Shown: positions 34,101-40,100 of the stretch, in pieces | Position numbering within the stretch: the first letter of the stretch is position 1 | How the letters are laid out: every line of letters begins with the position of its first letter | Source: Phorcus lineatus | Taxonomy: Eukaryota; Mollusca; Gastropoda; Trochida; Trochidae | Direction: 5' to 3' | Length of the DNA: 64,000 nucleotides | Assembly: GCA_921293015.1 (NCBI GenBank) | Contig: OV121093.1 | Span: 2,209,027 to 2,273,026 of the forward strand | The notes under the pieces: model-generated | What the model was told of the DNA's origin: nothing | The model's input: only the letters and a program-made list of their open reading frames with translations | Database searches by the model: none | Position numbers and translations under genes: made by a program

Positions 34101-37100
34101 CGCCCCCTGACCCTGCCGACCCCAGGGGCGTCACTGAGGGGGTGCTGCTGCTCTGTTGGTGCTGGATGGTTGTCGGCGGGGCGGGCGAGCCTTGACCTGA
34201 AGGGACCAGTCATTATACGCATTGTGTCCGTGAGGGAATCAGGTGCAGGTAATTGGGCATGTTGGTTCATTCAGATTTTTATGAAATTTTATCCCTGATA
34301 GACATTTTGGATTGAAAGATTATTTGCAGTGTTGGTCCTAAAATTTTAAGAGAGGGTTAACAGTGAAGGAGGGCGACCAACCCTACAACCAGCACTGAGT
34401 TTCATAGGTTATTCCTTCAATGAAAAAAATTTCTTCTGGTTTTTATTTCACTCTCTAATTCTCATGTCAACATGTTAACAAAATCTTTTGGGAAAAAAAA
34501 GGCTTTTTTACCTTACTATATTGTCATAAGAATATTAAAATTCCATTTGAATAGGAGGAAAATGTCAAACAGTCAAAATATTTCATTTTTTCTATATTGA
34601 CTCCCAATTTTAGAATAACATTTTGAATCTTTCAAACCAACATGCCCCATTATTGCGTTGCATTCTGGTTCAAGACGGTGCCTTTGAGAACATATATACT
34701 GCATATATAAATGTGTCAAACAATCTGCTCCGACGCCACTAGACTGGCACATTTAACAACCACAGAAAATAACTGACAACAGTCATAAGATAAAAAAACA
34801 TATATGAGTGGATTTCAGAATTCGTCACTTTTTAAGTCCTTTCCTCCTCCCATGTACAAGGACTTATAAAATTGCATTTTTATTAATTCTGAATTATTAT
34901 TACACATTTTCTGAACAAGTGGAGTACTATTTACAATTTTGAAAATTAATTATAATATTTTTGTCAGCATTTTAGTTGCCAATATTGGTCTAAATGCCCT
35001 GTCCCTGGGTGACCCCCACTCTCTGCTATGTTCTAAAACTCACAAAATTTAACAATATTTTTTTGGTTTTCATGTTGTTCTGCTTTCCTTAGACAATAAA
35101 CTTCAACCAACTATGATCAAGTTCGAGTTTCATTAATATTTTATTATTTTTTTCTTTCAAAATATGCTTGTCCCTGGAATTCATGTCCTGACTGTTACCA
35201 ATGTTAAAAATGCCAAAAATGAGGTCTCCCTCATGCTGTCTTGTTACTCTACTTCCTGTTCTGGAGAGTTTACTTCCTGTCAAGCCATTTGAATTAATGG
35301 ATTCAAGCACCAAGCTGTTTTAAAGACATTTTTCCCATTTGAGGAAAGTAGAATTACACCTAAGTCACCTTTTGTTGTCCTTCACTGTTACCAATACTTT
35401 ATATTGAAAATGCGCATTTTTTGCAATACTAATTCATAAGATATACCTATTTGTGTGAATAGTAGCTGATGCCATGTGCTCTTCAGATTCATTGGGGCTC
35501 ATCATTATTTTAACTGTGATTGAATTAAAAATGTCCCGACTGTTATTGTCCTGACCGTAACCACACACAATAGTAACGGTCAGGACAAAAATAGTAACGG
35601 TCAAGACAAAATGATCACATACATGTAAAGCAAATACGAAATTTATCTTTTGATTCAGAATAACTTCTCTTAATTTATTAAGTTTGAACCCTTTGACCAC
35701 TCAGCCTACTATCTCACAATCAAACAGATAAGAAATGTGTTAAAAGGTTAATAAGTTGGTTTGGGGTAACGGTCAGGACAAAAATAGTAACAGTCAGGAC
35801 GAAGTTGTTACAAATTTCATAAAAACATTAAATTCTTATTGTTATTATTCAAAATGGCAGTCTCTAATTTATTTATTGTTTACTGCTACGTGTACCTAAA
35901 TCCATTTTGTACGAAAATACAGGTGAAAAATTAAAGAACACTAGATAAGTTAATTTCCAGTAACAGTCGGGACAGATACCAGTAACAGTCAGGACAAAAC
36001 AATTTTTTTTTGCATAATCAAATAAAACTTATAATTTGTAATAAAAACATGAATGTGTATCTAATGCGTGTTAAAGTAAGTAATACTTACAACATATGAT
36101 TTGTAAAAGACTAGATAAACAATTTGATTATGATTAAAACAAGGCATTTGGGTAATGGTCAGGACATATTTGTCAAATACATCTAAAACAAATGAAAAGT
36201 TTTACTTTTGATTCAGAATAACTTCTCTTAATTTAGTAAGTGTGAGCTCTTTGACCACCCAAACCTACAATTTCACAATCAAACAGACATTGAATTAGTT
36301 AAAACGAAATAGGTTGATTTTGGGTAACAGTCAGGACAAAATTAGTAATGGTCAGGACAAAGTTGTTACAAATTTGAGGGAAAAAAATCATTAAACAATT
36401 TTTATTATGACTACGATAGTAGTGTACTTGCTCTCATTCCAAAGCCATCAGGGAGCAACAACTCTCGACACAAGAATGTGGACCCTGACATATGGAAACT
36501 GATAGTGGAAGAATTAGAGCAAAGGAATTCAGACCATACACCTTGAAATTAATTAAGCACCCTCCTTATCATACAAAATAAATCTTCATGTAAAGTACTG
36601 ATTTAACAGTGGCATTTACCCGGTAGTGATTTCATTTTACAGGTAAGTACTGTTCAGCTGCAGCTGTTCAGTACTTGAAAAAACATCACTTTCCTTTTCA
36701 GAGTGGCAGCTGTAACTGAGGTAAATCAGATGAAACAAATATGCTGAAGTTGGAATTAAAAGGGTGGTGTTACTCTGAGAAAAAAAATGCTTACGTAATT
36801 TATAGGTGTATAGTTTGAATTCCTATATTGTTTTGCTAAGGGGTCGATCTTTATATTACTGGAGAGGTGGGCTTTGATTTATTTTGCACAAAATATGTCA
36901 CCAAAATTTCTCTTATAATATTTTGTTCAAAGCCTGGGCAAAAAAAATGTTGTCCAAAATTTGTTGAACAGCTTAGAAAACGGAAGAAAGTAATTTTTAT
37001 TGAAGGTGACTGAGTTTTCAACGAATGTCTGAAAAAATAATCAATCATCACCAAAAATTCAATCCAATTCCCCCTAAAATATAATGGTCGGCCCCTAAAA

Positions 37101-40100
37101 AAAAATTTCAATTGATAGATTTCAAGTTAAAATGTTAATGTTAATTGGTAATACATGTACTATACTGGTATTATGTTAACATTAACATCTTCTAGTCAAA
37201 ACTGGTACAGTCAGCAACCAGATATATTTTGCTGAAGTTACTTATGTTTCAAGTTACTTACTTAGTTTCAGTTACCGTATTGATATCTAATTGCGGTCAA
37301 GAAAAGATACCTAATTTATTGTAATCTTCCAAAATATGAAAGATTACTGTTTTCTTTAAAAGTCCATATGACGGGTTTTAATATACATATGAGTATGTAA
37401 ATGTCCTGACTGTTACCATATTTGTCCTGTACTGTTACTATTTTTTGGGTATGCATCACCTGCAAAACATTACAGTATCTTCATGACTGTTTTGCACAAA
37501 ATGCTTTAATTTGTTACCATCTTTTAAAATCATATCTCAAATGTTAACAAAATATTGTGTTCTTTCACAAAGTTGGTCTTGTTACCAAGGGGGTCCTGAC
37601 TGTTACCTAAAGTGTCCTGACTGTTTCACACACCCATAAGACCAACAACAGCAATATATCATTTCTTTATTTTAAGCTAATGTAATTTCATTTTAAACTC
37701 TTTACTTCTGCTGTGATGTCACAATAACAAAACAAAGTCATTTCATAGGTTTTCTTAGGTACAATTATGAGTTACAAAAACATATGTCCTGACTGTTACC
37801 AGTTGTGTCCTGACTGTTACCAGTTGTGTCCTGACTGTTACCACTAATAAATGACACCTATTTAATAATACTTGAAAAAAATGCAAGAAATTTATTGACA
37901 TGAAGACAAAGAAAATCATTATTAGTATAATGTTTTCAGACAAAAAAATTAAAAAATTAGCTCACTAAGAAAATAATAAAACTTCTTTGGGTTTTCGGAG
38001 TGAAAATTTGCCTGGTTGTTGGTTTAATATGCTATATCTTGTTCTTAATACATTTGAAAAGCACTTTAACTTTCATGTTAATATATTAAGAGTTATAAAA
38101 GTCCATTTGTAATTAAAATTATTATTTATTGGCAAAGACCAGGATAGTTTTTTCATGTAATTATCATGGTAACGGTCAGGACAATTTTCATTACTGTTAA
38201 TTAGTTATGACTCATTAAACACATTACTGTTTACAGTTAAGCCTGCCATTTTGTATTTTTCGATAATACAATGTTTAAGGTTGTTATTCAAATAAAAAAA
38301 ATTATTATCACATAGAGTTCATTTTCTGTGTTTGAGGTCTTGAAAAAGTGACGAATTCTGAAATCCACTCATATGTGAAAATCTTAAAAGAAAAGATTAC
38401 ACAACAGAAAATATCTTAACATGATTATTACCAACAACAAGAATCATTCACAAATTATATCTATCCAGGTCCAAACAGCCTCGACAAAACTTACCACACT
38501 GACATTGATTGCAAATATAGTCATAAAGCTGCCAATTCAACAATAACAGGAAAAAAATCAATGCAAATTTAAATTTCATTCATGCGTTCCACACAATGTG
38601 AAATACTTAATACATCTTTGAAGTGTGGTTTGGTCTACCTTGTCTTGTACAAGCACAATCCACATATCTGTTTAATACTGAAAGTTACATGTTGTCATGG
38701 ATGGTTCGCTATACAGTGAGAAGCCGCTTCTACTAAGATCTCGAGGTAGAGCTCTGTTGTGTTACCCTTGTCACATTCAGATTACAAACAGACTTGTTTT
38801 TCCACTACATACTGTACTTTGTGTAGTGGTTAGAATTCAATTCTTAAAATTTGTGGAAGAATATACAACTGGGTAGCTTTGTTTGGTCCTGTGTAAAGAT
38901 GATATCTCATGATTAGAATAAAATACTCAAACTTAACAAAACAGGGCAAAATTTGAACAACATACTTTACTAGTTTCAAGATGGTGATGTCTTGTTGAAA
39001 TAATATCAATTATACCTACAAGGGCAATCATAGCGGGTTCATATTTTTGATACAATGCCCTAGGGCAAAATATCCCTTTTTCATTGCGACGCCATATAAA
39101 AAACAGTGCTTTGACGTCACAGTTCGCCTATAACGTTGTTTTCCAAATGCACCTATGCCTGTGCTTGGATGTTGATTTTGATTAGTTTCTTTAATTTCTC
39201 CACTTTGGTAATAAACAGAATATCATATTCGTGTCCATGACATACTATGTTTACAACACTCGTACCTTAATATCAGTATATCCCTCGCGATACTAATATC
39301 AACCACTGGTGTCGTAAACATAGTATGTCACGGACACTCATATAGTATTCTCGATTTACTTCTGTAAAATGACCCGTGCCTTACGTTACAATTCGCCTAT
39401 GACGTTGTGTCCCATATCCACCTATGCCTATGCTTGGATGTTGACTTTGATAAGTTTCTTTAATTTCTCTATTTACTTCTGCAGAATGACCTGTGTTTTA
39501 CCCTTCACAAACAGAAATGGGACGAACAAGACTACTAGCTTGTTACTTCCTCTTGGGTATAGCTCATTATGTATACAGCATTAGCAATTACTTAAATCAT
39601 CCTATCGTAGAGGTAAATATCTCTGAAAAGTTAAGTCAATAGCTACAACACTTATCAGTAAAGATAAAAAAATTTGTCTTTGAACAAGAAAAAATGTCTG
39701 TAAAGTGATCTACCAGAATCTTAAGTTTACTAGAGATAAAGAAATCAACATAGTGACCTACTTGAATCTTCAATGCATGAGATGTAGAAAAACAAACGCA
39801 GTGATCTACCCAACTCTTAATTATACGAGAGATGATAAAGAAATGTCATCATCTATACCACTGTTAAATATACTATAGAGAAAGATAATAACATAGCAAT
39901 GATACACCCTATTTTAAATAGTAAAGAATAAACATAGTGATCTAGCAGACTCTTATTATATATATAGATATATATATGAGAGGTAAAATGCAGCAGTCAT
40001 CTACCCGGGGAGAACTCGCCGGCGATGAGTCTGTTGAAGCTCTCGGAGGGCGGGTGCTGCACGGTTTGGTTTGCTTCTGTTGAGGTAGATGCTCGGTCCA

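Follow-up and report, generated by a model that had tools for sequence, protein, structure and literature searches.

We analysed a 64,000-nucleotide stretch of the genome of the gastropod Phorcus lineatus (assembly GCA_921293015.1, contig OV121093.1, positions 2,209,027 to 2,273,026 of the forward strand), which is called the window below, and found in it a 3,567-bp segment at 34805-38371 that is bounded by two identical inverted ends and carries 21 copies of a 16-bp motif. On balance, we favour the explanation that this segment is a non-autonomous DNA transposon with terminal inverted repeats (TIRs) of 29-37 bp and perhaps a TA target, which lies in an intron of a SMAD4-like gene and whose two arms are candidate site arrays for a protein supplied in trans. 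The whole analysis is based on one copy of the element, and we infer from its sequence that it is probably mobile.

The two ends were identical at 29 of 29 positions on opposite strands, which was found in none of the shuffles, and a search of the window for the 29-bp end sequence, allowing up to 3 mismatches, hit the two ends of the element and nothing else. Extended without gaps, the end pair covered 35 nt with 97% identity (34799-34833 and 38343-38377), and with one gap it covered 37 nt with 94.6% identity; the original prediction of inverted ends of about 38 bp was therefore right about the ends but slightly generous about their length. The terminal sequences read TGAGTGG...CCACTCA. A TA stands beside each end, and by inspection no target-site duplication longer than TA fitted either flank. 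The ends and flanks were as follows:

34805-34833, plus strand: left TIR, 29 bp, with similarity to about 37 bp
38343-38371, minus strand: right TIR, 29 bp, same as the left
34803-34804, no strand: TA beside the left end, possible 2-bp target-site duplication, read from the sequence, weak
38372-38373, no strand: TA beside the right end, possible 2-bp target-site duplication, weak

Past 37 bp, arm-to-arm homology was not detectable in any of seven stretches (p 0.08-0.97 against shuffles). A 200-bp local alignment of the arms, which had been a candidate for long TIRs, was dropped since these stretches were no better than shuffles.

Allowing up to 3 mismatches, the motif RGTAACRGTCAGGACA matched the window at 22 sites, against a mean of 1.02 and a maximum of 4 in 100 shuffles. 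Nineteen of these matches were inside the element and the three outside it (5329, 16697 and 56864) were weaker, which means that the motif is not evenly spread through these 64 kb. Two further copies had a one-base insertion (35376, with one substitution in addition, and 37423), giving 21 copies in total, the number originally claimed, and each of the 21 claimed positions lay within 6 bases of a real copy. The strands given with them had been exchanged: the copies described as forward show TGTCCTGACNGTTACC on the plus strand, so the motif as written sits on the minus strand. With the insertion copies included, the two arms had 13 and 8 copies, so a subterminal motif is reiterated on both sides:

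35184-35199, minus strand: exact motif copy, outer left arm
35376-35392, minus strand: motif copy carrying one substitution and an insertion of one base
35532-35562, minus strand: two motif copies 15 bp apart, with one base in common
35572-35608, plus strand: motif pair, 21-bp step
35765-35801, plus strand: motif pair, 21-bp step
35959-35996, plus strand: motif pair, 22-bp step
36151-36166, plus strand: lone motif copy
36323-36359, plus strand: motif pair, 21-bp step
37402-37439, minus strand: motif pair, 21-bp step, the 37423 copy having one inserted base
37592-37628, minus strand: motif pair, 21-bp step
37785-37842, minus strand: motif triplet, 21- and 21-bp steps, same linkers
38168-38183, plus strand: exact motif copy in the outer right arm, roughly one 193-bp step before the right end

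The motif was sharply delimited. In the 19 aligned copies, each of its 16 columns held 0.99-2.68 bits, and 48 of the 50 flanking columns held less than 0.6 bit, the other two (0.99 and 0.71) overlapping a paired neighbour copy. Mismatches made up 18 of 285 scored letters in these copies, which had been preselected for at most 3 mismatches. By a matrix built from the same copies, all 19 scored at least 21.5 bits and the next-best site in the element scored 3.3 bits. GC content was 49% at the motif sites versus 29% in the rest of the element. One further site in the left arm is suggestive only:

35000-35008, plus strand: possible decayed motif (TGTCCCTGG) at the first 193-bp position of the left arm

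This string, a post hoc choice, occurred 2 times in the window (35000 and 35169) against 0.16 expected, and 1 of 100 shuffles equalled it.

Many copies had been described as paired 21-22 bases apart, and this was borne out: there were 8 such steps in 7 clusters, using 15 of the 21 copies, with one extra pair (35532/35547) 15 bp apart. The two-turn step suggests two proteins on the same face of the DNA. The 8 linkers within clusters were 5-6 bp long with 6 different sequences, which favours such a site reading. Alternatively, the motif pairs could be products of 21-bp slipped duplication; 37785-37843 was a perfect 21-bp tandem. In each arm the inner copies were oriented inward, and the outer copies, 4 on the left and 1 on the right, faced outward. 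When copies on the same strand and less than 30 bp apart were merged, the 21 copies formed 12 clusters, whose centres repeated every ~193 bp. At a period of 193 bp, the left arm had a phase of +1 bp and the right arm one of -11 bp, each measured from its own end. The pooled phase concentration of the 12 clusters was 0.909 at the best period of 194 bp, which was matched by 0 of 3,000 random placements, a null in which tandem duplication is not modelled, and duplication alone can create a period. That the two arms are each in phase with their own end is less expected than the period itself. The ~193-bp period, the end phasing and the opposed inner orientation are additions to the original prediction.

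The spacers between clusters were compared with one another. Homology above z 3 (against dinucleotide shuffles) was found in 4 of 78 spacer pairs, all in the left arm (L1/L4 with z 16.2, L2/L4 with 5.0, L1/L2 with 3.5 and L2/L5 with 3.5), while the other 74 had none and the reverse-strand control had 0 of 78 above z 3. The L1 and L4 spacers fall within a block that is duplicated in the left arm:

35594-36408, plus strand: internal duplication, remnant of the likely ~193-bp tandem repeat, with 35594-35845 and 36152-36408 at an offset of 558 bp and 79% identical

Because the left spacers are homologous and this block recurs at a 558-bp offset, the left arm is likely derived, judging from its sequence, from a ~193-bp tandem repeat that is now mostly lost except for the motif and the spacing. 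Homology of the right-arm spacers, whether among themselves or with the left arm, was not detectable (best z 1.5), and yet the step was retained there.

The left-arm homology and the duplicated block also speak for another account, in which the motif has no part in transposition: a satellite-like ~193-bp tandem array simply sits inside a transposon, and within the monomer the motif changes most slowly, either through chance or through binding by a host protein (a CENP-B-like role). Mobile elements with satellite-like arrays are known, examples being Tetris TIR-220 (PMC4079207) and oyster Cg_HINE (PMC7492417). However, the motif is intact in the right arm, where the spacers show no homology, and a decaying array would be expected to leave half-decayed motifs, of which none was found except the two indel copies and the doubtful remnant at 35000. 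We regard this account as unlikely.

Several observations weigh against the transposon with protein-binding arms that we favour. First, the changes between the two parts of the 558-bp duplication were as frequent in the motif (7 of 48) as in the spacer (26 of 152; Fisher p 0.82). Motif and spacer have diverged equally, therefore no selection is visible since that duplication, and this also fits the satellite-like account. So motif conservation, if it is selective, predates the duplication or acts across transposition events; equal divergence is what a transposon that needs its sites only when moving would look like, and a plain decaying array would look like this too. Second, the TA flanks are weak evidence, since a 2-bp match in AT-rich DNA may be accidental. 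Third, no second copy of the element was found within the 64-kb window, and neither an empty site nor an autonomous relative was encountered. The TIR was also tried and rejected as the source of the motif, which lies outside it and does not resemble it (p 0.46-0.71). Finally, we know of no protein that binds the 16-bp motif.

Two further proposals concern the spacers. Six spacers between consecutive same-strand clusters, excluding those of 176, 138 and 325 bp, were 152-157 bp long with a standard deviation of 1.8, and three of the six (L3, R1 and R2) had no homology to any other. Under neutral indels, so small a spread had p 0.14, 0.03, 0.004 and 0.0006 at 0.1, 0.2, 0.5 and 1.0 substitutions per site per lineage, with an indel rate that comes from only five gaps between L1 and L4, a duplicated and thus not independent pair. 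One proposal is that the ~193-bp order is a chromatin device, with one nucleosome on each ~156-bp spacer and the paired sites in the linkers, so that the element would make its own phased array and keep its sites and ends open. The retained spacer lengths at 0.2 and 0.5 substitutions per site, the phase anchored near both ends and the GC-richer motif sites favour it, but the spread is unremarkable at 0.1 substitutions per site, the rate and the choice of spacers limit the calculation as stated, and a ~10-bp periodicity of AA/TT/TA was not above shuffles (p 0.34). Many tandem repeats share this unit length without any nucleosome role. A nucleosome device of this kind seems quite improbable to us. 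The other proposal is a lattice in which paired sites two turns apart recur every ~193 bp from each end with nucleosome-sized spacers between them, position rather than spacer sequence being selected; either a phased nucleosome array made by the element or a repeating higher-order protein assembly would then bring its distant ends together in chromatin. We offer it as speculation, and its chances appear small.

Between the arms lies a core:

36360-37401, no strand: core with no motif copies and no recognisable coding sequence

The element contained 19 open reading frames (ORFs) of at least 45 amino acids, the longest of 91 amino acids. A Pfam scan of all 19 gave 6 sub-threshold matches and none past the cut-off, although short spliced exons could escape such a scan, and no transposase gene was found among these ORFs. 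The best ORF match, to Peptidase_M57 (E 0.0098; score 16.1 bits, cut-off 21), was taken as chance. In the whole window, no Rfam match for a structured RNA reached the gathering score and no tRNA was found. The core also holds 37-nt inverted repeats, 84% identical and 228 nt apart (36523-36824), possibly a small nested element.

The element lies between exons of a SMAD4-like gene and is therefore intronic. The exons of this gene, on the minus strand at 19164-43936, are spread over ~25 kb, and its ORFs follow the protein order, with matches to MH1 at 43412-43936 and 42657-42887 and to MH2 at 25873-26085, 24912-25109 and 19164-19451. The MH2 piece at 24912-25109 matched SMAD4 chains with 112 bits versus at most 33 bits for other SMADs. 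This location within a developmental signalling gene raises the alternative that the ends and the motif array are of separate origin and that the motif cluster is a host enhancer or insulator to which a host factor binds. Enhancers typically contain homotypic clusters of sites, and the motif contains TAACRG, which resembles the Myb consensus YAACNG. But the ends enclose the array, its phase nearly agrees with each of them, and its orientation reverses from one arm to the other; such order would be unexpected for an unrelated enhancer, and we consider a host regulatory element very unlikely. The same gene also contains a tandem array with a 52-bp unit (41552-42210, 12.7 copies, 96%).

The original prediction of a mobile element that has inverted ends and a motif resembling binding sites is still the best reading; the dimeric binding protein added there can only be inferred. 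By analogy with known systems, the motifs are most likely docking sites, as predicted here, for a protein of an autonomous relative, either a transposase domain or an accessory protein. Each 16-bp motif would seat one DNA-binding domain of this protein, which would be supplied in trans, and a paired site would place two proteins next to each other on the same side of the helix. The large number of sites in both arms would raise affinity and specificity and concentrate the protein on the element, and the sites would then draw the two ends together, with cutting at the TIRs. Tandem duplication of a ~193-bp unit may have expanded the array, whose sites may have been retained because copies that lost them were no longer mobilised.

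Known systems share parts of this layout. In Galileo, a foldback-like element of the P superfamily in Drosophila, secondary THAP sites 561-577 and 701-718 bp from the end were bound in electrophoretic mobility shift assays, the TIRs are longer than 1 kb, and the authors suggest that many sites may add specificity and offset the cost of length (PMC3688188). Our element resembles Galileo in its internally repetitive arms with several putative sites for one transposase DNA-binding domain, but its TIR homology ends at ~37 bp and it has ~21 sites, mostly paired. It is not a Galileo or foldback element as these are defined, because long TIR homology of hundreds of bp fails here; the trace of a tandem repeat within the arms is only residual homology in the left arm and only spacing in the right arm. 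Tetris, a foldback element, is apparently non-autonomous, with ~220-bp tandem repeats in inverted arms, no conserved ORF and TIRs of up to 1,735 bp (PMC4079207). Probable remnants of a tandem repeat in the left arm and the lack of recognisable coding sequence recall Tetris, but in our element the repeats are decayed except for the 16-bp motif and the arms are non-homologous beyond the TIR.

CACTA (En/Spm) elements carry many direct and inverted subterminal motifs of 12-20 bp, which are recognised by TNPA, a protein distinct from the catalytic TNPD (PMC2613891). A reiterated subterminal motif on both sides (13 and 8 copies here) is shared with them, but our element ends in TGAGT...ACTCA, not CACTA...TAGTG, and its arrays are periodic and reach ~1.5 kb inward; since the ends are wrong, it is not a CACTA element. 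By analogy, with its proposed site arrays, it may nevertheless work like CACTA and Galileo. Tc1/mariner elements use a TA target, and ends of the Sleeping Beauty or Bari type have two or three transposase sites each. Secondary transposase sites within such ends (Sleeping Beauty, Bari) are also named in the Galileo report (PMC3688188). Only the TA flank, which could be chance, points to this group. No DDE/D transposase with paired HTH was found among the ORFs of our element, and the 13 and 8 copies in its arms have no resemblance to the TIR. The oyster Cg_HINE elements, of Helentron type, are non-autonomous and have a central satellite-like array (two consecutive ones in one element) with monomers mostly of 140-180 bp (PMC7492417). 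Satellite-like repeats on a non-autonomous element are again the likeness. Our element is not an oyster-type Helentron, because in place of the central array there are two opposed arrays within the TIRs, with a core of ~1 kb between them.

By its ends, the element can be classed as a TIR transposon. The layout is unusual, but the kind of element is known, and the family may already be catalogued. A full-text search of 5.39 million papers, which covered four exact strings of the motif and ends, gave no match, and among papers on subterminal repeats in invertebrates, judged by title and the start of the abstract, none described such an element; the description of the element as undescribed holds that far. 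The exact end strings and the motif pair had 0 matches in prokaryote and viral contigs, which has little weight for an animal element.

The window contained other repeats and genes. A tubulin gene was found on the plus strand at 5405-9602 (by Pfam on 8757-9602, with the first exon and the assignment as beta made by eye), and a 39-bp tandem repeat of ~14 copies lies between two of its exons (6464-7010). Another tandem array at 20942-22556 had a ~139-bp unit, 11.7 copies, 97% identity and strong strand skew. At 53208-54759, DUF3504/QRICH1 and phage-integrase-type ORFs, which we take to be KIAA1958/Crypton-like, lie between 39-nt inverted repeats with 87% identity (52400-52438 and 56114-56152). 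Relatives of this 39-nt repeat occurred at 47344-47377, 56156-56212 and 56947-57003, so the repeats may be a dispersed short repeat and not the ends of a recombinase element; Cryptons are not known to have inverted ends. Among the listed 25 of 28 inverted-repeat pairs in the window were several more of hairpin type, with arms 40-93 nt long, at 338-531, 7581-7669, 11321-11852 and 50244-50496, which may be miniature inverted-repeat transposable elements.

Many transposons without genes are known by their ends alone. Here, probable protein sites can be read from a single copy, namely 21 sites of closely similar sequence and the way in which they are paired and spaced, and the motif offers a handle for finding the autonomous partner together with its DNA-binding protein. 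Should the ~193-bp lattice be conserved in other copies although the spacer sequences are lost, this would mean that transposase site arrays are selected for their position in chromatin.

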